From Glandiceps talaboti (lineage: Eukaryota > Hemichordata > Enteropneusta > Spengelidae): DNA of 64,000 bases. The translations under genes were made by a program, and so were the position numbers. The notes under the pieces are model-generated. The model made no database searches, was not told the DNA's origin, and saw only the letters and a list, made by a program, of their open reading frames with translations. The stretch spans positions 18,678,151 through 18,742,150 of the forward strand of contig NC_135563.1 of assembly GCF_964340395.1 (NCBI RefSeq). The letters run 5' to 3'. Numbering within the stretch: position 1 is the first letter of the stretch; each line of letters begins with the position of its first letter. Shown here piece by piece: positions 28,092-63,328 of this stretch.

Positions 28092-31000
28092 TTATTCTGT
28101 GACAAGTTCATAAAACTGATTTGCATACTGCACTGCATCATCCATTCCCTCACAGCATGTCTTCCAATTCTCAGGAATACTCTCCATCCCATAATATGCA
28201 CCAGCAATGGCACCTGCCATGGTTGCTATGGTATCAGTATCTCCACCCAATGATATTGCGTATGTGATTGTTCTGACAAGACCATTGGAGGATATATTAG
28301 GACTGGGTTTTAGACAGTGTAGAAATGAAAAAATAGCTGTAGGAACTGATTTGTATGCAGATACACCATTACCTGAAAGAATGATAAACTGAACAATTCA
28401 GTCACTGAACATACATATTTTGGCTCTAAATGTATTTTAGATTATTTAGCCAAACACAGTTTTGTCCCAGCATGAAAATGGGATAACTTTCACTGGTAAC
28501 TACAGATTTATTTAGGTGGGTGTAGATTTTACTAATTTAGATACAAAATTGATGTGGCTATAAGTTCAAAGCAGCCAACAGATTTTATCTGCCCATATAA
28601 AATGGTGCCAAAATGTGAAAAATTGTGTTTCAGTTGAAATTGTTGTGAGTGTACTGTTGATGTCACTGTAAGCCTTCACAAGATCACTAAAAGTAGAATG
28701 TACCATGTTGTATTACACAAAGCAGAATGGAACAGACAATGTCATTGGTCATTTAAACCTCAACCAACAAATATCCATAGCTCTCAGCCAATCAAAATGA
28801 TTTGTGCTAAATTCAGATGGGCCGAGCTGCTAAAGCTCAAAATGTTTTGTCTTCATTTATCTCAAATGAAACTTTTCTTGGTGATAGCATACCGACATGT
28901 CAAAAACTGCACTTCAGAATGATTCACATGTTTCAAACTAAAAATTTGATTGCACATATTAAGGCTTTTTTTAACTGAAGATCATATCTGGTATTCAGTG
29001 AAAAAATACCTGGTTGCAGATTGCATGAAAATTTACAAAATTTAAAAATATACCCCTTCCACCCCTCAATATGTGCCTTTTCAATATTCCATCCTCTCCA
29101 TAATGTGTCTTTTTGTGAAAACATAAATGAAAACCTTCAAATTACCAAATTCCATTTTTTTTACTAAAAAATGGAAAAGAAGAAAAAAAGGATCACAGCG
29201 ATTTGTATGATGACTGGGTTTTCTTTTTCACACTACAAATATTTAGGTAACTTATTCGCACTAAAACAGAATTCCAGCAACATTTTACCAACATTTAGGG
29301 CGTTCTCACTAAAAAATCTGTCAGTACTCCCTCCACTAAAGAAAATCTACACAGGATGTATGTTGTCGTTAGTTTGATCATTGTTTATTTTTCATCTTTT
29401 CACATCCAGGATCTGTCAGACAGCAGATGCCAACTGTACGGTGTAGGCTTGAACTGTTGTGACCCTCACCAAGTCCTACTTCATGCTACTTTGCAGTACA
29501 ACTGTCAGTACTGTGAATCTGTTACAGCTGGTACTATAAAACTTTGGGTGCTATATACTATGGCTAGGAAGTAGGACACCAAAATGGATGTGTTATTTTT
29601 GATGAAACACATGAACCAATATTTGATATGTAATGAAACAACTAAAACAAAATTAAACCTTTTTTTGATGGAAAAAAAATTAAAGTAAATGTACGTTTAT
29701 GAAAAATTTGGAACAGTTTACTTAGTAATTTGACAATGACATGATACACCTGTAAATACATCAACCAAACAAACATAATCTGATCTGCCTAACAAATCAT
29801 ATTTTGCAGCATAATATTGTTTTAGTGTAAAGTTTCTCACAAAAAATAGTTCAAAGTTTTTCAGGTAAAAATTAAAAATATTTTAAGTTTCTCACCGAGT
29901 ATTTCAACAACTCTGTCAGTTGTTGGGTCTGGGTCTCCCAGCAAACTTTTTAGTTTCTTTAATTTGACGCAATATGGCTTTTCATAAATTACATCTTGTG
30001 GATCAGCATTAGTTTCTCCACCTTTGACCTTTAACAAGCAATCTTCACCTTTGACCTTTGGTAAGCCATCTTCACCTTTGACCCTACCAACAGAAACAAA
30101 TAAATATGAGACTAAATCCTGCTAATAGGCCCATTATACTAGCCTTCGCTGCAGACAATAGTCAATTTTCCGGTTCCAAGATGCATTGCATGACAGGACA
30201 TTGCTTATGTTGTTAGATTTATTCTTGTTTTGTCTTTATTACATTTGAAATAACTTTTTCATCAGGAAATGATGGAGAGACATGTTTACCTCTTTGATTA
30301 TGAGTGATTTTATAGAAAAAAGACTAAACAGCATCAATGAGAGAGGAATATTACGGATGAACTCAGGTTACAGTCAGGTGACAACCATTCCCCTGAGTAG
30401 CGCGTGCAACCCCTCAGTGCATGCACAATACATGGTATTGTATAGAGAGATTGCAATGCATCTTGGGACCAGCCTCCCCAAACAAAGCAAAAACCACAAA
30501 GTACTGCCTAGATAACAAAGTATTGGTGACTTAACAGAGATATTTCTCTGTAAAATTATAGACAGTGGAGGAGAAACCCTCCACCACTCTGTATGGTAAA
30601 ATATACATTTTAAAAACACTTCTATTAAATACTATGCCCATATTTATTTACAATGTTTGAAACATTTGATATCCATGACAACCAAACCATAATATTTATC
30701 ACAATGCATAATACAGCTCAAGACTGCAACTCAGTTGGTTAGCTTACCTCATAGACCCTCCATTTGGTGGAGTGGCTACGCTTACCTAAGTTATAATTTA
30801 GTTACAAATGTTTCCAGTGTTTTGGCATGATCAGACATGATAATATAGTCATTAGCACAAGGTGTGAAAGGGAACAAATACATTGTCATGGTTACTTTCA
30901 AAGATGTGGACCTCTTGTCTTGAGAAGGAAATGGGGATTTAAGAAAACTCTACTGTGAGTGTAATCTGCACCAGAGTGGGACAGTAAGTCACAAAGCCCT

Positions 31001-34000
31001 ACAGCAAAATTGTTCAAAGTTAAATTTACAGGCCACTTGGTACACATTCATTCTAATGAGTTCTATTTAGCAAATATGTAAATTTCATTCATCACATTAG
31101 TTGAGAATTTCAGGTGGTATTACACAGTCTTCCATTGTTTTACTAAATGACCAATTAGTAAGACACTGGAACATTACCAATCACTAATCAAAATAACAAG
31201 CATTATGCTATTAAAGGGTTGGTCCTTTTAATTTCCATAAGAAAAGACTTCAGACCTTGAAACCCCTCAGAATACCTATTCAAATCTCTGCTAATGGGTC
31301 TGCACCCATTTGGGTAAAAACACACTGAATCACATAACTACATTCACATGCAATGATGAACTAAACATGACTTAATATGACAGTGTTTGTCGAAAATTTG
31401 ACAAGGATATTTGTCACTTTTTTGTTTTTTTGTTTTTTATCTATCTATCTTTAGTTGTACTTTTCTAAGTACAAAAAATTGCAAGTCTCTCATAGAGAAC
31501 ATTTTCTCTCAGATTTTAATAAGAAATATGAGAAATAAGAAAACAAATAAATGACCAAATAGAAATAAAATTTTCTGTATCCTATGTAATTTTAAGAAAT
31601 TAAATTTTCGACACACAGAGATATTAAATTTTTATATTTCAATCAAAATTACTTATAATACGTAGTGAAAATTGATATGGAATTTACTGGGTGGGTAGCT
31701 TGCAATATAATATGTGTTTGTTGTTTAACATGGATTTTCTTTCTGGTTGGAGGGATGTGGTAACACACAAAGCCGAAAACATCTTAGGACCAAAGCCGAT
31801 TCAGAAATTTGCTGGTTTCCCCTACCCCAGGGTAAAGATGGAATGCCATATGGGATGGTGGTGATATCTAAGTGATTATTGTAAAATTTCTATTGAAAAC
31901 TCACTGTAATGAAGCCAGTTAAGTTTCAGAAAAAGCTTCCAGCTGTTACCTTATTTCCGAGTTTTATTTACAGTTAACACCAAACTTCCTTATTACTTGG
32001 TAAATGTATGACGTTGACTTAATGAATACCTAAATATCTTCAAAATACAATTTTTTGATCACTTTGATTCAACATTTGATAAAATGGGGAAATTTAGAAA
32101 GGCAAAATTGAAACCACAGATTGGGAAGTACATGTACCTGTTGCGCATAGTGAATTAAATACTACTTTACACAAATGCCGACAAGAAGACACCGACTTTA
32201 ATGCCCTAAGTCTAAAAATATAAATATGGCTTCTATAGTTTCAGGATGTGAACATCACAAATCTATTATAAGGAACATGATTTTAGCGCTAAAACCGACG
32301 CTTGTTTGTATATCATTTTTGGGGACAAGAATTCGTTTCTCCTAGAATTTTTAAATCTAAAATAATGAAATAAACAGTGATTTTGCTAAGGGTGGTATTA
32401 AGGAGGTAAAATATACCCTAGTTCTCTTGTCATTTTACTGAGAATTTATCAAAAGGCTCAATATATGGGAAACTGCTACTTTTACTGGTTTTTCCCTTTC
32501 CTGTAACAGGGGTCAACATTCTTAGCAAAGCACACTGGACAAAAGTTGCAGGTTGGCAATTTGAGTAAAGAAATCTATCCACAGTTTACAACAAAATAAC
32601 AACTGCAGGACATTTTCTATCATGTGTTTTTGTGACAACAATGTTTGGGTCTTTTTGTGTCAGCAAGGCAGGCGGACTATTTTCAGTTTTATGAAAATCA
32701 GCTAGTCCCTGAGGTGGGCAAGTGCACTTCCTTTTCTTGGCGGAAATGTACCTTTTAAGTGACGTAGCTATGACATTTTTTGGAAATGTCCATCTTCTGT
32801 TTTGCAACAGCTTGACAGGTTTTTTTTAGCCCAAGGTCATACTTTGCTGTACGTATCTGCCAACCAGTGTTTTAATTCTGTAGTAAAATCAAAATATCAA
32901 GATATTCTGTGAAAAGACAGTTAGTAATAAAAAATCATGTTACAGGCTTTCACAAATAATTTGAAGTATTTTGAAGTCATTCTTTGGTTGAGAATTTTTC
33001 CTAAGCTAGGACAGAGGTTCGAATTTAAACAAATGTGACAGTTCTCAGAAAATATGAACAGTGTTGTGGTGAGAACAAGGAAAGAACAGCACTTGTACCA
33101 CAGTTCAAACACATTCTAACATTTCGTGCAGGAAATCGTGGGCAGCTGTGCAGATATTTCTTACAGCAAGTGTCTCTATTGTAGCAAAGCCATTTTTTCT
33201 TTGTCTTTGGGTAAACCATGTATACCTGCTAATGAAGACTAAAAGGTGGGAGACCATGGATTAAGGAGGTGTGATTGTAACACAACACTACAAACCCTTT
33301 CTCAATGATAAGAGTCTAGAGGTGAAGCTACTTAACTGCTCTTTTTTAATGTCCTGTCTAACACTGTTTAAAGACTTACTTTCGCGTATTTCACAGCAAA
33401 ACAAAAACCTCAAAAATAAGTAGTGACTAAAAGGCCTTCCTGTACATGAACACAATGTACCAGTCTGGTGATTAGTGAAAATTTGTCTTTTAGATCTAGC
33501 TGAAGACTACAAAAACACAACATTTTCGAGTGGCGAAAATATCTAGGCTTACAGTACTCTGCTCTAGACAGAAAAAATTTCAGTTCTGCACATCTGGCTG
33601 ATTCACAAAGGTAAATATACATTTTGGCACACAACACTTTTCCACAGAAAGAAAATTTTTCACATTTTGACACCACCTTATTATAGCTGACAAACATCAC
33701 TTCTATGAGTATAGATATTGTATTCAAATAAACCTGACTATAGTATATCCCCTATGGTTACTATGGTTACTATGAAGAAAGGCACTTTTTTCTTCTTTAT
33801 GTAATTCAAATTTTCATTCCTCAAGTGACAAAAGTGAATTTGTGCATATTTTGACCTCAGATGATAAACTTCCTCATGGAAAATTTCTTGTAGATGTAAA
33901 CAGTACGTCCTCCAGTAGTCTGCTAAAGGATTGTATTCACTTTATTTCTGTTTGCTGTACCATGCTTGCTATGGCATGTTGTTATGCAATAAAGATTTAC

Positions 34001-37000
34001 AGTTGCACAGAATCTACCAGTGAAAGGGACTACATTTTCACATGGATTTATTTTGGTGTAAACTTGTATGTTTCAGCTATAAAATAAGCTAAAATAAAGT
34101 TTAGAGACATATTTCTGGGAAGTATACATATGCTCACATTATTGCTTATGGTCTGTGACATCATTGAACAGTCTTGTCACCAAAATTTAGCATTTTGTAA
34201 TTGTTTTTATGTAGACATTCTGGTATTTGAACTCACAAAAATTAACTTACATGTAAAGCAGATTGCAATTTTGTTGCTGTCTTCTGCATGAATGTTTATG
34301 TATTTAGTCAATTATAACAGCTAAATCTTGGTTACAATTTAAAACAGTACATAGAAATAAAACCACAGTCCTTCTACCTTCGTGAATAGTATATATAACT
34401 AAAAACCCACAAGTGCCTGTGGGTTGAAGTGGACTTTTTAAAAATAAATTTCTACATCTATACACACATTAGGAGAAAAAGTCATACTTAAATCAAATTT
34501 TTGTCCCAACAATGCCAGATTTATGCACTTGAAATTCAAAATAAAATTACTTCAAGAAATTTCATAAATTGAACAGATTTCAGACATGCAGTGAAAACTT
34601 AAAAGTTGTAAATTCTGCCATTGAAGGTGGGGAAGACTATTATTAAAAATCCAAGTTTATTTTTTAGGAAAAGTTGGGTTACCTGAAGCAGACAAAATGT
34701 GAAATATAAACAGACCCAGGTGTGCTAATGAAATGTACATGAACAATGCATCAATTTCATGGCAGGAGAGTTCTTCCTACACTTGAGTTCTAGGTATGTG
34801 AAATATAACCTTTTGAAGTACCCTTGACATGCTGGTCAACAATACTTTAACACAACCACAGCTTTATGGATTTTTGGTTACTCAAAACTGAAAGGAGGGA
34901 TACCTGTTACTCTCATTGAACTAAAAAAATGGATGAAAAGTGTTTAGTTTATTTATATAAGGGTATGGGAAGGATGAAAGGGTCACAATCAGAAGCTTGA
35001 AAAATCACTGTTTGTGTAACTTTTTGTGTTTGACTAGTCATTTTATATCACGCTGTACACGTTCACACAGAAAATATGGTATTAATACCCTTTTCATTCT
35101 ATGTCACCTTGTACACGTGTACACAGAAAATATATTTATACCCTAGTCATTTTATATCACGTTGTACACGTTCACACAGAAAATATGATATTTATACCCT
35201 AGTCATTCTGTCACCTTGTACACGTGCACAAAGAAAATATGATACTTATATCCAAGTCATTCTATGTTACACTGCATATGTTCTCACCGAAACTATATCA
35301 ATACCCTAGTCATTTTATGTCACCTTGTACACGTGCACACAGAAAATATGATATTGATACTCTAGTCATTTTATATCACATTGTACACATTCACACAGAA
35401 AAAAACGGTATTAATACTCATTTCATGTTACATTGTACATGCTCAAACAGAAAATATGGTGTTAATACCCTAGTCATTCTATGTCATGTTGTACACGTGC
35501 ACACAGAAAATATGTGATTTATACCCTAGGTCATAGAAAATATGGTATAGGTGAGTAGCTTTGGGACTTTGAGACTTTCTGCAAGTAAACCCACTTCAAA
35601 TGACAATCTATCCCATAATGTGAATGCAGAGCAAATTACTTCACTCTCCAAAATGGCTGACAGAAAGGAGTAAATGTAAATTTTTCATGATAAAGTTTTC
35701 AATACAACAAATAAATAAAATTAAAAAAATAATAACAGAGGCAGTGAAAACAATGGAAATAAGACCGACATTGCATGGCAAGGTGTTGTTATGGAAACAA
35801 TAATAGAAAACACTCACTTTGAACTGATTCGACAAAGAATATTGAATATTGAAAATGGAAGCTGACAATATTACTTCAATTTCATGTTCAGTTCAACAAA
35901 TGAGGATTCCTTACTGAATCTGAATTCAAACCAAGACAAACACAGATGGCAATGAAAGAGAAGAGAATCCCTAAAACAAACTTTGTCTACTGACAACTTT
36001 CCACTAAGCAAACGATACTATGCTATAGAAAGTGCTCCTTCAACAAACAAACTTGAATTACTCACACAAAGCTACAATAACATAGTAACCAAGGTCATGT
36101 GATCAGGTTGTGTGATAATACACCATTCAGTGTAGTAAATAAACACAAAACCGATTGTAAAAAAAAATCCTGCTTCATAGACTTTCAATCTATCATGAAG
36201 GTAATTTTAGAAATGGAAAATTGAACTTTTTCACTTGAAGTATTTCCTGTGTGTCTCCGTTATGTCGAGGAAAACTTGGGTCCAGCTGAAATATTTCCTT
36301 GTAGTCTTTTATCCCATGTACTGAATGACAAGACACTTCTGTCTCACTGAAGGAATCATTTGATGGATGTCTACAATATTTATAAAAACTTGCCAGCAAG
36401 GTAGGTGGGTATGGGTTTGGATGTTTTGCAAGAGTCAGTTGTCAGTTTTTAGAGTGACTTCTATCATATCAATAGCGCCCTCTTTGGCCAACAATTACTT
36501 TAAAATTTAGAGGTCAGTTTTACGGTGACTGCTATCACATAAATAGCGCCCTCTTATCCAATCACTGCTTGAGATTTAGATGTCAGTTCTAATACTTTTA
36601 TAGTGACTGTTATCACATAAATAGCGCCCTCTTTGTCCAATCACTGCTTGAGATTTAGATGTCAGTTCTAATACTTTTATAGTGACTGTTATCATATCAA
36701 TAGCGCCCTCTTTGTCCAACCACTGCTTTAGATTTAGATATCAGTTGTAATACTTTTATAGTGACTGTTATCACATAAATAGCGCCCTCTTTGTCCAACC
36801 ACTGCTTTAGATTTAGATATCAGTTGTAATACTTTTATAGTGACTGTTATCATATCAATAGCACCCTCTTTGTCCAACCACTGCTTTAGAGTAACTTTAC
36901 ACCACCAAAATACCAGTCTATTTTGAATTAAAGTACATGCTCCTGAGATGAAACTCAAAGAATATGAAGAGTATTTCAAATTCTAGAGATTTCCAATAAG

Positions 37001-40000
37001 GTGAAGTAGAATATCAAAGAAAAAATTGTTCTAGATTGTTCACTTTAACTTTTAGCATAAATCTAATTATGGTCTAGTTATAGAAGCTTATTGGTTATTT
37101 CAACTTACTGAAATCAAACAACTTGTTTGCTAGCTAGTTTGGCTAGTTTAAATCACAATCTATGTTTTTTGCTTCACTGTTTCACAAACTGCTTACAATG
37201 TTAGCAATGACAAACAATAGCCACCCCCCCCCCCCAGCAGTTTTAGTTATCAGCATGCCTGTTTGTAAATATTTACAAACTGTTCACTATATTATAATCT
37301 TGACTGGTCTTTCCCTTATAACCAATGGAGGACATAACTTTAGAAAAACTTCCATCTCCTATTTTACATGAATTTTCAAGAGGGCGCCATACAAGGCTGA
37401 GACATTGCAGTGCCAAACCTGTCAAAAAATTTGAATTTCAGAAACTATAATTTTAATGTAAATAGAATTCTCAAACAGTTATGTAGACATAAAGTGATGT
37501 TTTCTATTTGTGTTGTTTTTATGTAGTAGAGAGATTTGTTTTCTTTTTTTAAAACTTTTTGTATGAAATAAAATTACGATCAACAATTCACGTTTAGTTT
37601 TGAGTGTTAATATTTCTGACAAGCCAAGTAAATGACATGTATAGATGACATACACAGAAGTGTCACAGGCTTTAATGACTGATACAGGCTAATAGTGACC
37701 TGGTCCATAATACGATGCAAAAACTATAATATCAGCTTTACTTCAAACAAACACATAAGGAAAGTAAGTAGGAATATGTGAAAAAAGATACCCTCTCTAT
37801 ACTTGAAAACCTGTCTAGTTAATGTAAATATGAACTGATCTATATTTCTGATCTAAACTGACAGATTTTTCATCATCTGCACTCCTTTCATCATTCATCA
37901 TCCATTACATGTTTTGTTAATGATTAACAGTACAGTGATGAATCTTTCAGACTAAGTACAACAAGTGACAGGTAAGCATTTACAACTGGTTACAAACATG
38001 GAAAGTAAACAATTGAATACATTAAAAACAATTAATTGGCACAGCATGTTGGTACAGAGACAAGTATGGCTTGACAAGAACAGTTTTATGGCCTCCTTTA
38101 CATACACATCATCTGTGGATGTGAGCTGTTGTGTAAAGTGGCCATAAAATTGTTCTTGTCAAACGATGGAATGTAATACAAGTCTCTGTACTTCCAACAT
38201 GCTGTGTCAAGTGTTATTAATCCAATTCTGACCAGTTCTTTACTTTCCCTGTTTGTAACACATTTCGCTTGTAAATGCTTGCCTGTTGCTGGTTGTATTC
38301 TACTCAGCTAAAATGTACCAAAAGTCTTTCCTACTTTTTCCTTGGTATTTCATCCTTTATAATAACTTCATCCTCAATCTCATCCATGTACTCTATAAGT
38401 TTATCAAGAAACTCATTTGCATCCAGTGAAGATTTGTCATCATGATGTAATGCTAGATGTACAGCTGCACATTGTAATATGGCTCCATTGTAACCATGGT
38501 GATGGAAATGTGTCAGCAGGGTATTCTTTTTGGCAATCTGCCAACATTAACAGAATGATCAATTACATAAACGTTATTTGGTGCTATAATTATAGTATAA
38601 TATCTATCATAAATTTATTTCTTTTTCAAGAAAAATGTTCAATGAAGTGTGAACTATGACCCACCTTGACCATTTCTTCAAAATCATGATATGCAAATAA
38701 TGCCACAGGAGCCACTCTCATTGCACCACCGTTGCCATAGGAACCAGTGCCATTAAACTGATCTCTGGCTGGTTTGTAAACATCCTCTAAAGATGGATCA
38801 AGTAATTTATCGAATACTTTCATAACATTTCGACCATAGGCTCTGAATGGTTCTTTTTTGTATTCCCTGGCAAATCTGTAACAAAACAATGATTTACATT
38901 ACCAATAACTGATAATTGTTATATAAATTCCCCAGGTGACATTGCTATCATTTGCATCATTTTACATCTGCCCAATTTATTAAAATGTGACTTTTGACTT
39001 TGTATCTGTAACTTGAACTATTTCCTCCCATAATTGTTGATATCACAGAGCTGACATAGAGGCTGGAAATAAATGTTATATTAAATACACTGTGTCTACT
39101 TGCTGGCTCTTTGACTTAGCTACAGTTGTTATCCCATGGATAGCAAACGAGTATAACGGAGTCACAGCATCGTGAGAATGAGTCACAGTTCCAGTACAGT
39201 CAGGACAGTCTGGTATGCACTGGTTGATACATTACAGACATTGCAAGAACCATTGATCGTTGTAATTTGACAATAAAAATACATTACCTTTGAGCCATGT
39301 CTTTGGCATTGTATCCTCTGTTCTTGATTAATGATTCAGCTACTGATCTAGCCATAGCAGTGTCATCTGTAAACTGCAATTTACCTGTAATTATCAGAGA
39401 GATTTGTTTGAGTACTTGCATTCACATCGTCAAGAGCTCGAGATGAGGCGTGTTTGGAAGCGCCCTCAACGGCAATATATGCATTAGGGAATGAGTCTCG
39501 GTGCTACCTGTCGTAGTTCATACCTTTGGTACTGCTTCATGCTGAAGTTATCACATGAGTATGTACTTCATTCCCCTCTCCAGACAAATCATATACCATA
39601 TGCAACAACATCCCTATTGTGTTGTATAACTATTATCTTGATCCTGTCAATCAAGTTTATAACTTGGAAGTTTATATATTCTGTATGTTGTGAAAAATCC
39701 ATGGCATGTACCACCCATACGCCTACCTCCCTGAACCAACCAACTGAACCTCGGGCAACATATATTTCAGCTGTAAGATATAGGGATAGGGGAAGGCAGT
39801 GGGCAGAGCGGGCAGTTTTCGATATTTTTTTCAGGAAGTAAGTGAATAAATGTTACTACAATATTCACAAGATGTAAATTAATTGTGTGATACAAATAAT
39901 TAATTTTTGATCATGTGTGTCATCGAAACTGGCGAGGCAGTGCATTGAGATTGCAGCACAACCTAATATGTCAACTGACAACTGTCAATACGTATATTTT

Positions 40001-40594
40001 ACAAGGAGAAATTGTTTTGTTGTGAGTATATAAAATAGCATCCTGTGTAAATTTAACATTAGGGCTTCAACGAATAGTGGACAGAGGCCATATGTCTGGT
40101 AGAGGGTAGCGGAGAGAGGGGAAACCTTGGCGAAAATTGCGGGAAGCAGCCAGTGGGCAGGCAAATCTGGCGGGAGGACTGGTCGTGTAATGTCGCAGTG
40201 GGAGGGCAGATACGACCAGCTTTCACTTTCCCCTCCAACCTTGAATCAAATGTAAAATTATGTAAATTATTATTAGCAATGTTTTAACTTTCTGTAATAA
40301 TTTCAGAAAAATGACTCGCTGGCTGCACCTGTATTTCAGTGGACAGTAGTATTTTCGTAACCAGCTGGATTACATGTTTTCGTCAATAGTTTACTACTTT
40401 ACACACTAGTTGACCACCATCGTCTTACCTCTTTTAGAATACGCTATATCAGGAGACTCAACATGTTGTACTACGGCTGTGTACTCTACTGAACCAAATT
40501 CAAAGTCCCATCCCAAGACGTCGCCGGCTACAGCAGCACATAGACACCCACGAAACTTCGATAACAACCTTCCGCTGTGACAAGGTAACGCCAT
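28092..40594 (-). CDS. ARH3-like ADP-ribosylhydrolase, copy A
   Basis: Six coding exons on the minus strand: 40594-40429, 39384-39288, 38875-38665, 38537-38335, 30083-29896 and 28372-28092, giving 381 residues; human ARH3 has about 363. ARH3 (ADPRS/ADPRHL2) is a magnesium-dependent hydrolase that removes ADP-ribose from serine and O-linked ADP-ribose from PARP products, in nucleus and mitochondria. Seen in the sequence: Gly24-Asp25 and Glu32, equivalent to the catalytic flap glutamate; Thr61-Asp62-Asp63, a metal-binding motif; the ADP-ribose loop GSYGNGG at 132-138; an LTH before GYNGAILQ; and LGGDTDT at 330-336, the second metal-binding motif. All joins have GT-AG borders and keep frame. The exon 4 donor, AA|GTAGGA, is weak and was placed by homology to copy C. 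Intron 4 is 8.25 kb against 0.2-0.5 kb in the paralogues, so the two blocks could instead be remnants of two copies, though the phases match. Predicted active enzyme. Confidence 0.8.
28430..28640 (-). repeat. dispersed repeat family member (copy A intron 5)
   Basis: Read on the minus strand, this contains TTACCAGTGAAAG followed by CCCATTTTCA and a GGACAAAACTGTGTTT-like block, resembling the segments at about 26690-26790 and 34005-34090. It is an old interspersed repeat within intron 5. Confidence 0.4.
30001..30083 (-). repeat. 27-bp in-frame tandem repeat inside copy A exon 5
   Basis: Exon 5 begins with about two and a half units of 27 bp encoding KVKGEDGLP, KVKGEDCLL and KVKGGE. Copies B and C have no expansion here. 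Exon 5 of A is 188 bp against 134 bp in both paralogues, a difference of exactly two units (54 bp, 18 residues). The repeat lengthens a charged linker before the conserved C-terminal part of the hydrolase and keeps the frame. Confidence 0.85.
33380..33560 (+). repeat. dispersed repeat shared with 52450-52635
   Basis: AAAATAAGTAGTGACTAAAA and, about 120 bp later, GAAAATATCTAGGCTTACAG occur here. Nearly the same two blocks, in the same order and at similar spacing, occur at about 52486-52630 in intron 3 of copy C. This is one family of old interspersed repeats, class undetermined. Confidence 0.55.
34005..34090 (+). repeat. dispersed repeat family member (copy A intron 4)
   Basis: It contains CTACCAGTGAAAGGGACTAC followed by ATTTTCAC and TTTATTTTGGTGTAAAC, similar to about 26690-26790 and to the reverse of about 28430-28640. 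Confidence 0.4.
35038..35545. repeat. minisatellite, about 9 units of 52-58 bp
   Basis: Diverged tandem units each run CATTYTATRTCAC, TTGTACACGTGCACACAGAA, AATATGRTATTWATACCCTAG. The GTACAC cores recur near 35053, 35111, 35163, 35218, 35327, 35383, 35436 and 35491, with one degenerate unit near 35275. Several units contain CACGTG, and the unit at about 35110 holds the perfect 14-bp palindrome TGTACACGTGTACA. The array lies in intron 4 of ARH3-like copy A. Open frames through it only translate the repeat. Confidence 0.9.
36454..36896. repeat. minisatellite, 6 units of about 79 bp
   Basis: Units begin GTGACT at 36454, 36525, 36603, 36682, 36761 and 36840, so the period is 71, 78, 79, 79 and 79 bp. 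Each unit carries AATAGCGCCCTCTT (AATAGCACCCTCTT in the last one). The units alternate between CATATCAATAGC and CACATAAATAGC forms. The array lies in intron 4 of ARH3-like copy A. The later units are nearly identical, which implies recent expansion or homogenisation. Confidence 0.93.
37958..38297. repeat. large imperfect inverted repeat (foldback element)
   Basis: The left arm, about 37958-38101, is matched in reverse complement by the right arm, about 38134-38297, with a spacer of about 32 bp. Blocks shared between the left arm and the reverse complement of the right arm include AAGCATTTACAA, GTTACAAACA, GGAAAGTAAA, CACAGCATGTTGG, TACAGAGAC, TTGACAAGAACA and TTTTATGGCC, all in order. The arms differ by small indels. 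It lies in copy A intron 4, within 40 bp of exon 4. It contains no coding sequence and is consistent with a foldback MITE or a long double-stranded RNA hairpin. Confidence 0.85.
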
Positions 40595-41676: not shown

Positions 41677-42108
41677 TACCCAAGATATACCGTCAAGAGG
41701 TGTGTCACAAGAAAAATAAGGTCAGGTTTGTGAGAATGTAAATAACAAGATAATAAATGAATGGTTTTTATAACATTCTGTGAAAATGTAACCTGGGAAT
41801 TATGATTCTTTCATGTTAATGATTATGATAATTACATAATTAAATGTATATCATACCTCTATATTAGTTAATAAATAGTCAGCTCTGTTGAATGAATGAT
41901 CGTCAACATTACATATAGTACATTACAGTTTCTTTAAATAAGGGAACTCGATTTTTATCACATGATTTGTATTAAAATATCACCACATTGAAACAGGTGA
42001 ACAGTACATTAATATTCAAATGTGATAACATAATCTGTTCAAGTTGATGACGTCACATGTCATTCTGGTTGTACATAAATGATACAAGTTCTCTAAATGT
42101 CTTTTAAT

Positions 42109-45100
42109 TTAGATTTGGAAGCTGTACGTGCCACAACTTTCTTTTTCTGTGATATGTTCATAAAACTGATTTGCATACTGCACCGCATCATCCATGCCCT
42201 CACAGCATGTCTTCCAATTCTCAGGAATACTCTCCATCCCATAATATGCACCAGCAATGGCACCTGCCATGGTTGCTATGGTATCAGTATCTCCACCCAA
42301 TGATATTGCATGTGTGATTGTTCTGACAAGGCCATTGGTGGATGTATTTGGAGTGGGTTTTAGACAGTGTAGAAATGAATATATCGCAGTAGGAACTGAT
42401 TTGTGTGCAGATATACCATTACCTGAAATAAAACAAAATTTTCGATGAAAGTTGGGTGACAGCATGTTAGATTACTAGATTATATATCTTGACAGCATGT
42501 TATCTAGCTGAGACAATGTGTTTCCTATTCGCAATTTCGAAGGTAATTTCTAGATCTTTCTACTTTCGCATATAGAGAAGAGGAGTTCAACGAAGATATA
42601 CAGGTAGCTGTGGATAACACGGTTCATTTCCGTTTTGCATATTATAGTTTACTGAACGTTACTCACCTAGCATTTCGACAACTGTATCTATTGTTGGTTC
42701 TTGGTCAGCCATAAGATCTCGAACCTTCTTTAATTTGACACAGTAAGGTTTGATAGTCATTTTTTCCGATGGAATGACGTCACTTTCTTCCTTGTCGACT
42801 CTAAAAATAGAGAAAATAATGATTTCATGCTCTTTTTTTAATAGAAAATTTCCCCCTTTAATGAGTTCAAATTCATCGAAGCATACCATAACGTTCTCCT
42901 CTGAACGTAAAATTTAAAAAGAAGAAATCATCTATTAATTTGTACTTGCAATTTTCTAAAAAAAAGTGTACACAATTTGTGTAAACGAACAACTGTTTCA
43001 TCATATATCTTACCTTTGCGAATGTTCGCCTTCAATCACATCCATATATTCTACAAGTGTGTTTATGAACTTTTCTGAATCCAAAGGACTTCCATCATGA
43101 CGTAAAGCTAGATGTACTGCAGCACATTGTAAAATTGCTCCATTGTAACCATAGCAATGAGAATGCGTCAGAAGGGTCGTCTCCTTGGCAATCTGTTAAT
43201 ATTGAAATACGTAATTGACAATTTGTCCATATATGTCATCAAATATACCCGTCTGAAACAAAGTTGCACTTTCATTCTAAAGATGGTCGCCCTTTAAGAT
43301 GGCCGCTATGACGTTGCACCACAATGCCATGTATGGCATCAATTGGATAATTTGCTGGATTGTGATACCATATAGGTTGCGTACAATGTATGAGATGAAC
43401 AAAAAGTTGCACTAAAATAATTTGAAGCGGTGTATTTAAATTAATATTATGTGTTAGCTATTAGCTACTACGATTCAATATTACATGAATGAAACTCTAC
43501 ACTATAACATTAAAAATGTATGGACAGTAGCACCATGAATAAATTATACTGCGTTATCAAATACATGTACATTTTTATTCCCTGTGTAAAGTCATAGACA
43601 GTGGAGTCCCCTACAGTGTCTATGGTGAAGTCAACAAACCATCCCATAATTACAGTTTGTAACAATAGTAGATATTGACAAGCTGTGACTCACCCTCTGC
43701 ATTTCTTCGAAATCGTGATATGCAAATAATGCCACGGGTGCTACTCTCATTGCACCACCGTTGCCATAGGAACCCTTGCCATCAAATTGATCTTTGGCTG
43801 GTTTGTACACATCCTCTAAAGATGGGTCAAGTAATTTATCAAAAACAGTGACAACAGTTCTACCGTATCCACGGAACGGTTCTCTCACGTATTCCCTTGC
43901 AAACCTACAATAACAAAGTTTGAATATTCTGGTTGAAATTATACGCAAAACACCTCATTCTACATACTACACTTCTTCCATCATAGTTAACACCGTAACT
44001 GTAAAGGAAGAGGTACATTCACTTCTGACATTTTATAAAACAAAAAGATTTGTATTCAACTGCTAGACAACTCTCATTCATTTGTGTGTTCATTCATCCG
44101 CTACTAGAAACTTTTGAGGCCTGAGGCGGAGAATAGTCAGTGCTTACAGATGGAATAAGTAGGTACTTAAATCTGACGATGCCCCGTTCCTTTTCAAAAT
44201 CGAGTTCTGACTTACTCTGTCTGCAAGCAGGACTACCCGAGGAGAGCGCTGCAAATAATAAGACATTGATCCATAAGACAGTAAAACGTTTCTAAGATGT
44301 CATCATTTACCTTCCAGCTATGTCTCTAGCGTTGTATCCTTTGTTCTTAATCAATGATTCAGCAATTGACCTGGCCATAGCTGTGTCCCCTGCAAACTGC
44401 AATTTACCTGTATGATTGTTTATAGAAAAAAACAGATGCGAAATAGATGTAGTAGCAGCGGAACTCAAATAACATTATTGAAGATCCCCTGTAAGAGTGT
44501 ATTGAATGATTGGGATCATATGCTAATTCGTAATCGAATTAATGATGCTATATATAGAGATAACTATATGTATAGCGACGTACAGAAAGTCCTTGCATAT
44601 CAAACAAGAAAAAAAGTACATCTAGGCAATTCTCCATCATCGTCGCAAACCACGGCCTGTTTTACGGCACCGTTCTTAACGTGCCGTCCCACTGGTTTTA
44701 TTTCGAACTGTAGCGGAAGAAATGACAAGATTTTTTCTTTAACTCTTTTCAACAGACTTATGGCAAATGAGTGTTGTACAAAACGACAAATTCTTGCATT
44801 CCATGAGTCAAATTAGTTAGTTGTGATATCGATACCCTAAGCTCGGAAGACATGCTCACCAGGCTTACAGCAAAATGCATGAAGTGTGTTGGAATAAACA
44901 TGATTGATATTAGAAAAAAAATCGAAAAAAACTTCTTCTCCTGGAAAATTTTCTCACTAGGCCACACATCACAATTTTGAAGTTTATTCAATCATTGCCA
45001 ATCTTATTTCTAGATGACTGCAGGTAGAGGTTCTCTGCACTATGCAAAAACGTATTTGACATCAAACAAGTTAAAGTATGACGAATGTATAAAAGTGAGA

Positions 45101-45742
45101 GGTGTATATATATACCTCGTCGCGCTCTACAAATAAACCTTTCATGTCTATCCGCATCGCATCTTTTCATTGTGATACGTTTAAAGAGAACTACTGCATC
45201 TTCGAGGTTGAAGTTTAATGACTAGTGCACTCGTCAAAGAAATAAGTAAATTTGACCTCATAAATTGTACACACCTGGCTGGAAGAAGTTCACCGAAGCA
45301 GATAAGATATATTACTGAGCACTTTCCTCACCTAGTAATTTGAAAAGTGTTCAGTTTGTGTAATTTGTGATCTTGAGATTCTACAGGGATATAATTTTAA
45401 TATGCCTGGCAACAGCATACTGTGTACAGATGTACAAGTACACAGGGGAAATACAAGTGTTCTAGCCAGAAAAAATTAAAACAGTAAACGGTGCGGTTCT
45501 CACGCTTTTTGTTAACAGCAAATGTTAACTTACAGAAACCATGCACTTTATAACTGTTACCAAGAGTAACCATGCCAACATTTAGTTGATACAAGTGGTA
45601 TACATGTGAGATCAAGCTGGCTGTTTGTAGTTTTCCCAGTTCCTATCAATGATCATTGCAAACAATTAGACCTCCAAAGATCTCTAAAGATTACTTACTT
45701 GGAATATTTGCACTAAAATGAATTAGGTTTAGCTGATCAGTG

Positions 45743-45793
<51 letters not shown>

Positions 45794-46682
45794 CGGCTAT
45801 ATAGCTGGTACGCACGATTGAGAAATTCAATAACTTCTTGGTGACGGCTTTTTTTGTAAAATATATGCTGAAGGTTATTCAGATGTTTAATACAAAGGTT
45901 GTAATTGTCAATTTGATTAAAATCTGATGCAGGAATACGGTCAATGATGGGACGGGGCTATGGGAATGAGCGCTTCTGTTCTCCCAGAACAAGATCGAAA
46001 ACAAACAACAGCATACGAAGGAAACAAAATAAATAGCGCAATCGGGCCGTATTCACCACGGATGACATTGGATTTTAATCAGATTAGTAACTATCCTAAC
46101 AGGTGAATCCTCGGTCAAAATGTAAGTGTTCAATCTATAGGTCAAAATTTTCGAATGGGTTTTGAAACTGTTTACTGTGAAGTTACCGGTATCTATAAAT
46201 TATCTTCACATCGACGTTACACTGCAGTGTCTTTACAATAAAATCTACAGAATAAGAGGTTTCCTCTTTGTGCTGTTTACGAGGTAACTATCCTTAAATG
46301 ACCTTGCGAACTAATTTCAACATATTTACCTCAGCAGTATGGAGGGGCGGTGCATACTACCCTAGAAAAGAATATGATTTAGTATGGGCCATAAATAAGC
46401 CCTCACTTCAAGGAGAAAGTGTAGCAATGTCACTGTGTCCCCTATACACGAAAGGGATTCTGGTCAAAAGGGGTTGTCCAAAGTTGAAATGACTCTATGT
46501 CTGATCGAAGTTACTGAACAAATTAAGACCGGGTCGAGTTAGTGTTTGTTTCCATCCGAAGAACTAGGAATGGAAACTAAAGAAAGTTATAGAAGTGAGA
46601 TGAAAACAGGGTGTATAATCATTCAAGGAACTAAATTCAGAGTCTGTGGAGATGAAACGTTTTTGTATATATATGTATATAT

Positions 46683-46726
<44 letters not shown>

Positions 46727-47299
46727 ATAACCCGGCTTCCGTGGTGATCATACCTCAGTATTAGTAATTACAAAAATGCAGAATTCCCTGCCAACATGTT
46801 TACCTCTGTGATTGCTTTATATCCTTTCCCGGGTTCTTAAATTAACTATTTTCCAGGAATACTTTGCACACTACACCTGTGGGTACCATTGTGAGGCAGA
46901 TTTGATCATTTATAAAATAAGGGACACATTATTTTGTTTAAAGAAATTAGTGAGTAAGGGAAATGATATCGCAATGGTGTCAGAAACGATAAATAAAAAC
47001 AAAGCAATACAAACAATCTAAACGAAACAATAAAATAAAACTTTGTGGCAGATTTTACAATATTTTTGCAATATTCTCCACGACTCAACTTGTTAAGAAA
47101 TAGAGTATCGGGTTAGATTAACCAGTTTCCTACCTCTTTTGGAAAACGCGTTTTCGGGTGACTGAACGTGTTCGACCACAGCTGTATATTCCGCAACACC
47201 AAATTCGAAGTCCAACCCTAATACGTTACCAGCCACGGCAGCAGCCAAACATCCCCGAAACTTCGATAACAACTTTTCACTCGTACCAGATAGTGCCAT
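42109..47299 (-). CDS. ARH3-like protein, copy B (probable inactive paralogue)
   Basis: Six minus-strand coding exons: 47299-47134, 44407-44311, 43904-43694, 43192-43014, 42800-42667 and 42422-42109. They have the same phases as copies A and C and give 366 residues with no frame break. Family features kept: Glu32 in the FEF segment, ADP-ribose-loop residues GSYGNGG at 132-138, LTH before GYNGAILQ, and LGGDTDT at 304-310. Odd: the metal-binding Thr-Asp-Asp of exon 2 reads Ala61-Gly62-Asp63 (GCA GGG GAC, where A and C have ACA GAT GAC), and the conserved Gly-Asp is Gly24-Asn25. In characterised ARH3 enzymes the Thr-Asp-Asp side chains bind magnesium, so hydrolysis is probably lost or weakened while ADP-ribose binding could remain. 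The open frame, splice sites and conserved fold argue against an ordinary pseudogene. The C-terminus is slightly longer than in A. Confidence 0.85.
44640..44670 (+). repeat. 31-bp dispersed motif, copy 2 (diverged)
   Basis: Matches the motif at 41646-41676 with three substitutions. It lies in intron 1 of copy B. Confidence 0.6.
45744..45794. repeat. (ACA)n microsatellite
   Basis: A pure ACA array of about 17 units within intron 1 of ARH3-like copy B. Confidence 0.95.
46665..46722. repeat. (TA)n microsatellite
   Basis: A TA-rich array with GTATAT and CATGTA interruptions, then about 16 pure TA units. It lies in intron 1 of copy B. Confidence 0.93.
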
Positions 47300-48558
47300 C
47301 TTTATACTTTATATTGTTCAATTCAATCTTTCAATGGCAATACCAAGACCTGCCAATTTGACGACGACCGATGTTTAGCTCTCTTATAATTTGAAATTTC
47401 GATGTACATGGATGGTTTTGAGACCAGGGGGAACTACTTATCACGACATTGTAAATGTCGGCTTATAATGCTTTCGGAGTCATCAGCTCAAGAAATTAGT
47501 TTAACTTATTTCAGGGGAGAGTATGTTTGCTGTGACCATTTCTTGCCATCAATGACCAATGTGATATACCGTACGTTTCCACAGATTTTACCAAGTTTTC
47601 GATGTAATTCATTTTTTGAAGAAACAAATTTCCTTAGGTGTACGCCCCCGGAATGCCATGTGTATGGGAAAATGTCACTTTCAAGGTGAATTTTACTAAC
47701 TATTAGAAAGGTGGTATATTTTGGTAGAAAGAAGTATATATCAAACGGTATCTAAAAGTGCCATAGGTGATTTGTCATAAGTAACTGTGGTGTAGGGAAA
47801 AGATAGTGTTAGTGTACAATAAAAGGCCAGGCTGACCTCAGAGGGTAAAGACACGTCCTGTCGTTCTTCTCAATCTCGCGCGAAGTGGTAGCTGATACAT
47901 TGTCAAGGCCGTGTGCACACCGTGTCTTTACAGACACGCCTGAACTTATATACAATAAACATTATTTTTGAGTGCAGTCCCCGGGATGATAAAAATCCCA
48001 GAAAAAAAGTTACGATTATTGTAGCTAGTGTGAATTTGGAACAATCTTTTTACACTCGAAGTTCGGAGCACAGACATGCGCCATCACACTGTTGAACGGT
48101 ATAAATTCTACGTCGAAAACCAAATTCTCACGTGCCTTTCCTATACACAATAGGGTGAAAACCTAGAGCTTTCAGAAAGAGCCAGGACTAGTGCTTCGCA
48201 TGTCCATTCAAAAAGGGATCATGTATATTTGAAAAGGAACCAGCGCAGACAAGTTGGCTGATTTTTTCCTATCTGTTTCAGTTGATATTCAGGGAGGCCT
48301 GAAAAAGTCGCTATCCCTTTTTCGACTGGTAGAGACTTGTCTTTTTCTTGGCTGAATGAAGACAAATCCTGGGGAATTATATCAAATTACATATTTCAGC
48401 TATTTTCATATTAGGAAATTATCTAAGTAAAAATGGATTCATAGTTACTAGAATTGCATGTGTAGGTAATCCTATCAATTCTAAAGTGTGAACAAAAACC
48501 TGAAATATCATCCACATGTACCCATGTAATTAAATGATTTCATCCATATATTTTACAT

Positions 48559-50597: not shown

Positions 50598-51389
50598 TCA
50601 CTTTGACTCTGAACTTTCTTTTTCTGTGACATATTCATAAAATTGATTTGCATACTGCACCGCATCATCCATGCCCTCACAGCATGTCTTCCAATTCTCA
50701 GGAATACTCTCCATCCCATAATATGCACCAGCAATGGCACCTGCCATGGTTGCTATGGTATCAGTATCTCCACCCAATGATATTGCATGTGTGATTGTTC
50801 TGACAAGGCTATTGGTGGATGTATTAGGACTTGGTTTTAGACAGTGTAGAAATGAATATATCGCAGTAGGAACTGATTTGTGTGCAGATACATCATTACC
50901 TGAAATTTTGAAAGAAATCATTATATTTAACCAACACAGAAATAATTGGATAATTCATCGTATGTGCATAGGGTCTTTTAAGGGCATAAGATTCCATGTT
51001 AGAAAACAAGTGAAAATCTACTTTGGGCTAAGGATGGCAACTGTGCAGTACCTTCTTTTGGTCAACCTCATGCAAACCATAACAGACACTGTGATTGGTT
51101 GTTGAATCCTCACCTGATATATTTCAACCAATCAATAACTGACTTTATCATGAAAGGCACAACTCTGACCAGAGATTAGTAAAAAATACATTTTCAACAA
51201 AAACCTTTTACGTTTTGTATAAAGTTTCAAATTTATACATAGAAAGATGAGATTAATAGCGTACATACATACATACATACATACATACATACATACATAC
51301 ATACATACATACATACATACATACATACATACATACACATACATACATACATACACACACATACACACATACATACACACACACATACA

Positions 51390-51423
<34 letters not shown>

Positions 51424-54400
51424 CATACATACACACACACACATACATAAATGCATTCATGCATACATATATACAAACACACCTACATGCACACACATAT
51501 GCATACACCACCCTACCCCCATGCACACTTTTCCTTATTACCTAGTTTTTCGACAACTTCAGCTACCTTTGGTATCTTGTTTTCCAATAGATTTTTAACT
51601 GTCTTGAGTTTGTCACAGTAAAGTGTTTTAGAAGTTGTATCTGATTGGTCACCTTCACTTCCTTCACCTTTGACCCTGAAACCATATACATGAATGTGCA
51701 ATTAAATGTTAAAACAAGGGCAAATGTTGCTTCCAGTTATCCCCCCCCCCCCCCCACCACCACTTCAATTTGGATAACTGATATGCATGAAATTCGTTCA
51801 ACAACTACATACCAGGTCTTGGACATTACAACCACAAGTTGAATTCTGTATTGCACACTTCTTTATTCTATAATATTTGAACAATATACTGGAGGCCAAT
51901 AAATCACAAACTTGTAAGTTATACATTTCAAAACAGAACAGCTTCTCTACACAATACATGTCATCATTGCCGCCATGACTGTAGATGACAGTCCAGACAT
52001 TTGCTTATTCTTCCCACTGAGGGCGCTGTTCCACAAAATATTAAGGGAGGGTGAAATTGAAAATATTTTTTTCATTTTGATGTTGGAAATGAAAATTTGG
52101 GTTGGTCGGGTAATGAGAAACAGGACAAAAAATAGGGTCACTCTAAGAAAAGCTATCCAAATTCACAAAGGATAAGTCATTGTCTTACTTTTTTCTTGTT
52201 CCTTCACTCCTTTCACCTTCAATCTCATCCATGTACTCTATAAGTTTATCAAGAAACTCATTTGCATCCAGTGGAGATTTGTCATCATGATGTAATGCTA
52301 GATGTACAGCTGCACATTGTAATATGGCTCCATTGTAACCATGACGATGGAAATGAGTTAGCAGGGTTGTCTTCTTGGCAAGCTATCAAATAAGCAAATA
52401 TCATGGTGTTATATATTTAACTTTTGTAAACCTGGAATATTTCACTGAAGACTTATTTTCCTTTATTGTGCTCAAAAACTAAAACGTGAAAATAAGTAGT
52501 GACTAAAATGCCATCTAAGATCTTACACATAAACACAGTGAACCAGGCTTAGAAATTTGCATACCATACTTTTTGAAACCTGGTTGAAGATCGCAACAAT
52601 TTCTAGAAGCGGAAATATCTAGGTTTACAGTATTTGCAAAGAGGAATAACAACAGAGTTTTGAAAATGTAGATAAAAGATTAATTATGAGAAGTAAAACT
52701 TTCTTAAATACAAATTTGTTGAACTTTTGGGTGATTAGAATGAATGAGCTACAATCATGTACACCCATCCTGCTTTCTTTTTGTATTTAGAATCTGTATG
52801 TTTCCTTGTGAACACCATTGGGTGATGAACTTTGAACTATGAACTGTGACCCACCTTGACCATTTCTTCAAAATCATGATATGCAAATAATGCTACAGGA
52901 ACTACTCTCATTGCACCACCATTACCATAGGAACCACTGCCATCAAACTGATCTCTGGCTGGTTTGTAAACATCCTCTAAAGATGGGTCAAGTAATTTAT
53001 CAAAAACAGTGATGACATTTGCACCATAGCCTCTGTGTGGTTCCCGCTTGTATTCCTCGGCAAACCTATCAAAGACAATGCACACCATGGCATTTTAGCT
53101 TATCTGATGGAGACTACAACATACACTATACAGTAGTGTTTTTGTTTATCAGGGTCAGTGTGCCCTCTAACGATAGCTAAATTTTGTTGTTTTGAGTCAA
53201 AATGATAAAACCTGACATTTCTTGTGAGTCACCACATAGTAAGAGATAGGGGAACACCAAACTTTGGTGCGTCACTAGAAAGTGTGTGCGCCAGTGGTGT
53301 GTCAAATTGGCTTAGCAGGCACACTGATCAGGGTGGTTAGTGGGTAGAATCTACCAAGAGTTCTCCAAGTATTTTACCACTGGGGTTTTATAATGATTCT
53401 CCACAACAATGGTACATTGTAATACAAATGTTTCCAACATTAAACATATTCCCCATCCCTTAAGCAAAAGCATTGAACAGGTTCTTCCAGATTATGAATA
53501 TAGAAGGGTCTACCACCATTCAGTAAAACTGTATAGCAATAGGCTATATGCATGATAGCAAGGTTGACACCTAATTCCTTTTTTCCAGAAGTGACAGAAG
53601 CCAATAAAAGACATCTATACAAACATTTTAGGATGCACAGGACAGTAAAATACACATGACTTGACTTTTATCATATTTTAATCACATTGTCTAATACTTG
53701 TATGTTAGTGTCTCTGGTTATTTCAGTAATATAAGTCAGGGGCATGAAATGGGGATTATTTTGAGGTGTGACAACTGCTTGGCTGGTGAGCAGGTGGATG
53801 CACTCAACAGGGCACTTGCAATCCAGACTGAGCATGCTCAGCTGCAAAGGACTATGGGACAATCTGTAGTAATTGTACAACTAAATCTGGAGTTATAAAT
53901 TCAATAAACCTGCTACAATGGTCAGGCTAATCATAATTACATTATCTGTAGTTACAAACAATGTAAAATAACTGTTTACAAGACTGATTGATTCATATTT
54001 ATCATCACATTTCCCATGATGCACCATTCAGGATATTCAAATGATCTTTCCGTGCCACACCATGGGGTATATTATGAGAAAACCCTTACAGCTCAGATAT
54101 GGGTTTTGTGGACCTCAGTAGTACTGGTTACGGGTCCTCCTAAAGTCGGGCCCTTCCACCATACAACCTCGGTTGATTAAGATTTATAAATTACCTTTGA
54201 GCCATGTCTTTAGCATCGTATCCTCTGTTCTTGATTAATGATTCCGCTACTGATCTAGCCATAGCAGTGTCATCTGTGAACTCTAACTTACCTGTATATT
54301 TTAACAAGAAATATAAAGTAAAAATAGTTTGTCCTTAAACATGAATTCATATAGCAGAATGATACAATATTTATGATTACACGACAAACATCTCATAATC

Positions 54401-55254
54401 AGTCGTGTACTGTACAGCTGTATGTTTCAATGGCCATCTGGAATGTATAGTTACTTCTGTTGGCAGACAGCCAGTTGGGACTCTATTTTGACAGTTGTCC
54501 CTCTATTCCTCAAGAAATAAGAGATGGAATTGAGCCCTGTCTGCATGTAGTACTAGAAATTAGCTATTATCTGCATAGTTTGCAATTATTGTATCATCTT
54601 CAATTGGACTGTTACAACCATGACAACGTAGTCTTTCACAGCAGATTGAACTGTGCAGATTGATTCGTCTGACCACAGATGAGGTAGGCCTAAACAATAT
54701 ACAAGTACTTGGAATAGTTCAATAATGTTTAGACCATGTTTTTCTGTTATAGGCTGCATACTGGCACGTAGCTGCAGAGACTCCCTTCCCAAATATGTGG
54801 ACGAGGAACCTAGACAGCCAAAGTGTTAAAGTTGAACCCGAGTTGAAATTAAACATGGAAATGTGTGCTGAATTATCGAAAAGGTGTTTATCGTCTGTCA
54901 AGAATGAAAATATGGCAAAAAATATCAATCTTTTTCGTTCGTTTGATTCCTTTAACTCGAAAAATACCAACTTGCGCCTTTAATAATTTACAGTTTGTTA
55001 TAACATTTACGTTGAGTGAAAAGGGACTGTACATGATGAGCACTTCCGCGTTTCGTGTTCACGATGATCGATGATTGATTTGTGGTTTACCTACCTCTTG
55101 TGGCAAACGCTTTTTCAGGAGATTTAACATGTTCAACAACCTCTGGATATTTCGCCAAGCAAAATTCAAAATCTGATCCTAACACATCACCGGCCACAGC
55201 AGCAGTTAGACAACCACGAAACTTCGACAGCAACTTTCCACTGGTTATCGCCAT
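50598..55254 (-). CDS. ARH3-like ADP-ribosylhydrolase, copy C
   Basis: Six minus-strand coding exons: 55254-55095, 54291-54195, 53065-52855, 52382-52189, 51675-51542 and 50899-50598, giving 365 residues. Catalytic features are complete: Gly22-Asp23, Glu30 in the FEF segment, Thr59-Asp60-Asp61, GSYGNGG at 130-136, LTH before GYNGAILQ, and LGGDTDT at 307-313. It is predicted to be an active Mg-dependent ADP-ribose hydrolase of the ARH3 (ADPRS) type. The start at MAITSGKLLSKFRGC was chosen because it aligns with the starts of A and B, although an open frame continues 57 codons upstream. Exons 2-5, including the KVKGE linker of exon 5, resemble copy A, whereas exon 6 is almost identical to copy B at the DNA level. 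The introns are all 0.2-1.3 kb. The stop lies after an extended, charged ending (TEKESSESK). Confidence 0.88.
51261..51509. repeat. (CATA)n / (CA)n compound microsatellite
   Basis: About 250 bp of ACAT/CATA tetranucleotides with CA-rich interruptions, in intron 5 of ARH3-like copy C. It ends about 30 bp from the exon 5 donor region. The tyrosine/valine- and histidine/threonine-rich open frames across it are repeat translations. Confidence 0.97.
52450..52635 (+). repeat. dispersed repeat shared with 33380-33560
   Basis: It contains GAAAATAAGTAGTGACTAAA and later GGAAATATCTAGGTTTACAG, in the same order as the copy in the long intron of ARH3-like copy A. It sits in intron 3 of copy C. Confidence 0.55.

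Positions 55255-56966: not shown

Positions 56967-63328
<6,362 letters not shown>

Follow-up and report, generated by a model that had tools for sequence, protein, structure and literature searches.

Copy B of a tandem of three ARH3 genes in Glandiceps talaboti appears to be an ARH3 paralogue without the Mg-A site, with Thr76Ala and Asp77Gly in the metal motif and Asp34Asn adjacent in the active site; Glu41 of the catalytic site, the adenosine-binding loop and the protein ligands of Mg-B are retained. The change in sequence, the open gene and the purifying selection on the B branch are observed directly. On balance, and by analogy with mutants of the human enzyme, we regard B as a selectively kept ADP-ribose binder, whose most likely role would be to cap or read serine-linked ADP-ribose beside its neighbours A and C, which are probably active erasers.

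The three intact genes (A, B and C) lie on the minus strand of the window, that is, the whole 64,000-nt stretch of NC_135563.1 that was analysed (C16:18678151-18742150 of a genome of 590 Mb in 47 contigs). Each copy has six exons with GT-AG borders, the intron phases match among A, B and C, and all exons join in frame. Copy A (50598..55254) consists of exons 1 to 6 at 55095-55254, 54195-54291, 52855-53065, 52189-52382, 51542-51675 and 50598-50899, and copy C (28092..40594) of those at 40429-40594, 39288-39384, 38665-38875, 38335-38537, 29896-30083 and 28092-28372; both carry the canonical TDD motif. In exon 5 of copy C, an in-frame 27-bp tandem repeat of 2.6 units (30015-30083) makes the linker longer. 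Copy B runs from the start codon in exon 1 (47134..47299) through exon 2 (44311..44407), exon 3 with an intact ADP-ribose loop GSYGNGG (43694..43904), exon 4 (43014..43192) and the variable linker of exon 5 (42667..42800) to exon 6, in which GGDTDT (Asp314, Asp316, Thr317) is intact (42109..42422). All three reading frames run from ATG to stop uninterrupted by stop codons and encode proteins of 365 aa (A), 366 aa (B) and 381 aa (C); the description of B in the first-pass annotation as an open gene without a frameshift proved correct, with 366 codons, GT-AG borders and an unbroken frame.

The match of copy B to Pfam PF03747 covers almost the whole profile (positions 1-286 of 287; 197.5 bits against a cut-off of 26.2). 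Among PDB sequences, its matches to ARH3 chains have E-values down to 2.5e-94 and those to ARH1 chains E-values of 0.02-0.03, so that B is nearest ARH3, not ARH1. The match listed first is 7l9h, whose sequence row has T-A-D at positions 76-78, in agreement with a D77A protein, and whose lead over the wild-type chains is trivial. Over the 328 residues of B aligned with human ARH3 (ADPRS, ADPRHL2), a Ser-ADP-ribose hydrolase which B resembles in its near full-length PF03747 domain, 162 are identical (49%; 159 in A and 164 in C); unlike that enzyme, B is without the Mg-A ligands T76 and D77, and Asn replaces D34. When the whole genome was searched with the copy A protein, 17 of the 18 best-scoring matches fell inside the A/B/C cluster, and A, B and C therefore look like the sole ARH3 genes of the assembly among the best-scoring candidates; the 18th match (on C7, E 4.3) looks like chance. 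Other ARH-type matches of the genome search are located on C1, C6 and C11 and elsewhere on C16. Pattern matches in bacterial, archaeal and viral contigs yielded zero confirmed relatives.

Residues were numbered after human ARH3 by anchoring at D77, with D314, E41 and D34 in register. The first-pass annotation had claimed that exon 2 of B encodes Ala-Gly-Asp where A and C have Thr-Asp-Asp, and that B has Asn for the Asp of the early Gly-Asp; the codons confirm both. Exon 2 spans exactly 44311-44407, and its motif (44385-44393, minus strand) reads GCA for Ala at position 76 (44391-44393), GGG for Gly at 77 (44388-44390) and GAC at 78 (44385-44387), so that Asp78 is kept, as against ACA GAT GAC in A (54269-54277) and C (39362-39370). 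At position 34, exon 1 of B has AAC (47225-47227), and A and C have GAT or GAC. Since Asp34, Thr76 and Asp77 are present in human, mouse and coelacanth ARH3 as well as in A and C, the changes in B are derived. An error of assembly or base calling at the motif is extremely improbable: it would have to account for four substitutions at two sites in separate exons, and an isolated error is unlikely because exon 2 of B differs from A at 22 and from C at 17 of 97 nt around the motif. An alternative exon 2 of gene B with Thr-Asp-Asp was likewise rejected, as a six-frame motif search of 42000-48000 did not find one in the gene and tblastn with the B protein gave a single exon 2 per gene. In exon 2 of B, a CAG 18 nt past the acceptor (44390-44407) is a candidate for an alternative acceptor in the same frame, use of which would leave out six residues; CAG also stands at the equivalent place of A and C.

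Glu41, Asp78, Gly115, Phe143, Ser148, Tyr149, Gly150, Asp314, Asp316 and Thr317 are unchanged in B. The alignment was further inspected at human positions 117, 118, 146, 147, 149, 151, 152, 179, 182, 269 and 271. In a structural study of human ARH3 (PMC8141533, Table 2), the protein ligands of Mg-A are Thr76, Asp77, Asp78 and Asp316, and those of Mg-B are Asp314, Asp316 and Thr317. By this assignment, B has lost two of the four Mg-A ligands (Thr76 and Asp77, with Asp78 and Asp316 kept) and none of the three Mg-B ligands. The earlier wording that B had lost the Thr-Asp-Asp metal motif is thus right for Thr76 and Asp77 but too broad for the metal site as a whole, of which only half is lost, as Asp78 and the Mg-B ligands stay.

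The expected consequences can be drawn from mutants of the human protein. As reported in that study, D77A, D78A, D314A and D316A are all without Ser-MAR hydrolysis (PMC8141533). D77A lacks Mg-A only, has the distal ribose rotated by about 37 degrees, and binds ADPR with a KD of 0.06 uM against 1.42 uM for the wild type, which is 23-fold tighter; D314A has lost Mg-B and has a KD of 62.89 uM (PMC8141533). Activity is severely reduced in D34G, E41A, T76R, D77N and D78N according to another report (PMC8319183), and ADPr removal is absent in D77/78N according to a third (PMC8221567). Substitutions at the three positions changed in B therefore cripple human ARH3, with the qualification that those at 34 and 76 are different substitutions (D34G and T76R). 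The combination of T76A, D77G and D34N was not found to have been made in any protein in the literature searched. The features that grip the distal ribose in D77A, namely Asp78, Asp316, the Mg-B ligands and Gly at 115, are all present in B; because B keeps these contacts, a dead enzyme with binding left would be expected, by transfer from a protein that is 49% identical. The human laboratory mutant (PMC8141533; 7l9h by its sequence row) is like B in that the D77 side chain is absent and the Mg-B protein ligands are kept, and unlike it in that B is natural, has Gly at 77 and carries T76A and D34N in addition.

By analogy with these mutants, B would be unable to cleave Ser-ADP-ribose or poly(ADP-ribose); it very likely lacks normal ARH3 activity and is very probably dead as a hydrolase. 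Both this loss and the retained or raised binding are transferred from the human mutants. Binding of ADP-ribose would persist in B and might even be stronger than in A and C, since Mg-A of the human enzyme positions the substrate but lowers the affinity for it, and B is plausibly a tight binder; however, loss of Thr76 or Asp34 might weaken ADP-ribose binding as well. That B could still be an enzyme, with one metal or re-tuned to another linkage or substrate, is quite improbable. In favour of it, B retains Glu41 and Asp78 along with the Mg-B ligands, and some PAR hydrolysis was left in the one-metal human D314A (PMC8141533); however, that residual activity followed loss of Mg-B, not of Mg-A, and PAR hydrolysis by D77A was nearly nil under three metal conditions (PMC8141533).

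A dead B might also have had its fold reused, independently of binding, as a protein partner or structural element. The precedent is ADPRHL1 (ARH2), a known vertebrate pseudoenzyme of the PF03747 family with an essential role in the heart (PMC7390403), which resembles B as a paralogue of the ARH family in which the metal site is broken. ADPRHL1, however, is nearest ARH1 and has lost three of four Asp (Asp56, Asp302 and Asp304 in human ADPRH numbering) together with residues of the ADP-ribose cleft (PMC7390403), whereas B is an ARH3 that retains the checked cleft residues F143, S148, Y149 and G150 and the Mg-B ligands. The ADPRHL1-type pattern, with metal site and cleft both altered, is not seen in B, in which only Mg-A ligands and D34 are affected, and we consider such reuse of the fold unlikely.

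Selection on the B branch was estimated with a codon maximum-likelihood model fitted to A, B and C only, over the 216 codons of exons 1-4. The dN/dS on the B branch came out far below 1 for these three copies of one species: omega_B was 0.147 (approximate 95% interval 0.09-0.24), compared with 0.234 for omega_A = omega_C, and omega_B = 1 was rejected (2dlnL 55.5, p about 1e-13). A single omega for A, B and C fits nearly equally well (2dlnL 1.8, exons 1-4), and constraint on B is no weaker than on A and C taken together. When each branch was given its own omega, the values for exons 1-4 were 0.15 for A, 0.14 for B and 0.54 for C, the branch of C being short. Without the three active-site codons, omega_B was 0.140 (exons 1-4), and over all 353 codons it was 0.234 (2dlnL 42.3 against omega = 1). 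The B branch is the longest, with 0.80 per codon versus 0.30 and 0.24. Meanwhile, identity over exons 1-4 to human ARH3 is 98/206 for B (A 100, C 99), to mouse ARH3 94/203 (A 101, C 98) and to coelacanth ARH3 94/202 (A 104, C 100), so that B appears to lie slightly, not grossly, further than A and C from the mouse and coelacanth proteins. Purifying selection has acted on the B branch, and the gene as a whole was maintained and not decaying. The reading of B as a pseudoenzyme is well supported by this selection together with the crippling effect of substitutions at its three changed positions in human ARH3.

Tandem duplicates often decay, and B could have been inactivated recently and now be drifting with its frame still unbroken. 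The branch omega averages the time before and after the loss and so gives the loss no date, and by our estimate from the omega interval neutrality may have covered roughly one seventh of the B branch at most. A simple simulation of neutral evolution, with substitutions as the only events, gives 217 codons a 10% probability of staying free of stops at a distance of 0.1 and a probability of 0.017 at 0.2. As omega_B is not above that of A and C either, such early non-functionalisation seems rather unlikely. The statement of the first-pass annotation that the pattern fits a reader or decoy rather than decay holds for the whole B branch, where omega_B is well under 1, but less firmly for its end, where a late loss with little decay since would still fit.

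Conserved columns, defined as invariant in human, mouse and coelacanth ARH3 and in both other copies, are changed at 5/129 in A, 9/133 in B and 4/128 in C. The nine changes in B include D34, T76 and D77, i.e. three of the eight positions assigned to catalysis or metal binding (D34, E41, T76, D77, D78, D314, D316, T317), at which A and C have none. Among the other six, M100I, R140K, K172R, L212I and L253M are mild and K109V is not; five mild changes out of six speak against a B that is drifting. The hypergeometric p for the losses of B was 0.010 with the eight sites, 0.072 with seven (without D34) and 0.077 with a nominal 16, a set given as a number only; the clustering at the active site is modest and, as the site sets were chosen after viewing the data, suggestive only. 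The changes at conserved columns of the sister copies include G270D in exon 6 of A and G115A in exon 3 of C.

The evolutionary history of the three copies differs between exons. A tract of 295 nt in exon 6 is 97% identical between B and A (42135-42429 and 50612-50906), and other high-identity tracts between copies are found at 54186-54296 and 39279-39389 (93%) and at 52212-52384 and 38367-38539 (94%). The NG86 dS between A and B is 0.058 in exon 6 versus 0.55 to 1.0 in exons 2-4, and dS between A and C is 0.18 to 0.38 in exons 2-4 versus 1.05 in exon 5; NG86/YN00 values that were undefined (nan), namely A-B exon 1, A-C exon 1, B-C exon 2 and B-C exon 5, were left out. Exon 6 identity to C is 93% for A and 94% for B. 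In protein trees, B groups with C for exons 1-4 (79% support) and A groups with B for exons 5-6 (77% support). The high-identity tracts stop at, or extend little past, the exon borders, and in the 60 bp flanking each exon the similarity is at or modestly above that of shuffled sequence. A, B and C are thus mosaics, in which exon 6 of B was recently homogenised with copy A; exon-bounded conversion, perhaps via cDNA, would explain the tracts. Because exon 6 was homogenised, the intact second Asp pair says little on selection in B, and conservation of the Mg-B ligands in B is dependent evidence, shared with A through that exon. The earlier remark that the ADP-ribose loop and second Asp pair of B are intact is accurate as an observation, but the pair is weak as evidence of selection. 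Exon 2 of B is without overwriting by A or C sequence, which is compatible with selection for Ala-Gly-Asp, short of proof.

For the favoured reading of B as a kept ADP-ribose binder, a role as reader or decoy is plausible by analogy with the human mutants. More tentatively, and with less than even confidence, the locus may represent the change of an ARH3 eraser into a high-affinity ADP-ribose reader through loss of one metal, kept in tandem with two probably active erasers and competing with them for serine ADP-ribose. If true, a natural ARH3 lacking the aligning metal alone would show how few substitutions can turn an eraser into a reader, and for B a precise prediction follows from the structure of human D77A. 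The ARH family spans all three domains of life according to a survey of PAR systems (PMC4245714), the passages of which that were consulted make no mention of an ARH3 copy of this kind. Among the matches listed in the open-access literature, outside which most subscription papers lie, none announces an ARH3 pseudoenzyme, and vertebrate ADPRHL1 is the sole ARH pseudoenzyme.

A distant ARH-like open stretch elsewhere in the genome (L011, about 4747-5055; C1:6.64 Mb) reads W-T-V-D-F-D-Q-M where a possible relative (L012) has W-T-D-D-S-D-Q-M at the matching place; L011 may be a further case in which the first Asp was lost, or else a gene in decay. Within the window, a minus-strand open stretch at 56967-57590 gives a weak FAM176 match of 25.3 bits, under the curated cut-off of 31.5. 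In addition, AAA and AGG are absent from the 447 COX1 codons counted in the mitochondrial contig (C40). Lack of AAA is reported for Balanoglossus, but the position of cob, assigned by eye, does not match, so that the contig points to an invertebrate, perhaps a hemichordate. It has 51,222 bases and carries three copies of COX1 spaced 15,435 apart, apparently a circular genome assembled over three times round.
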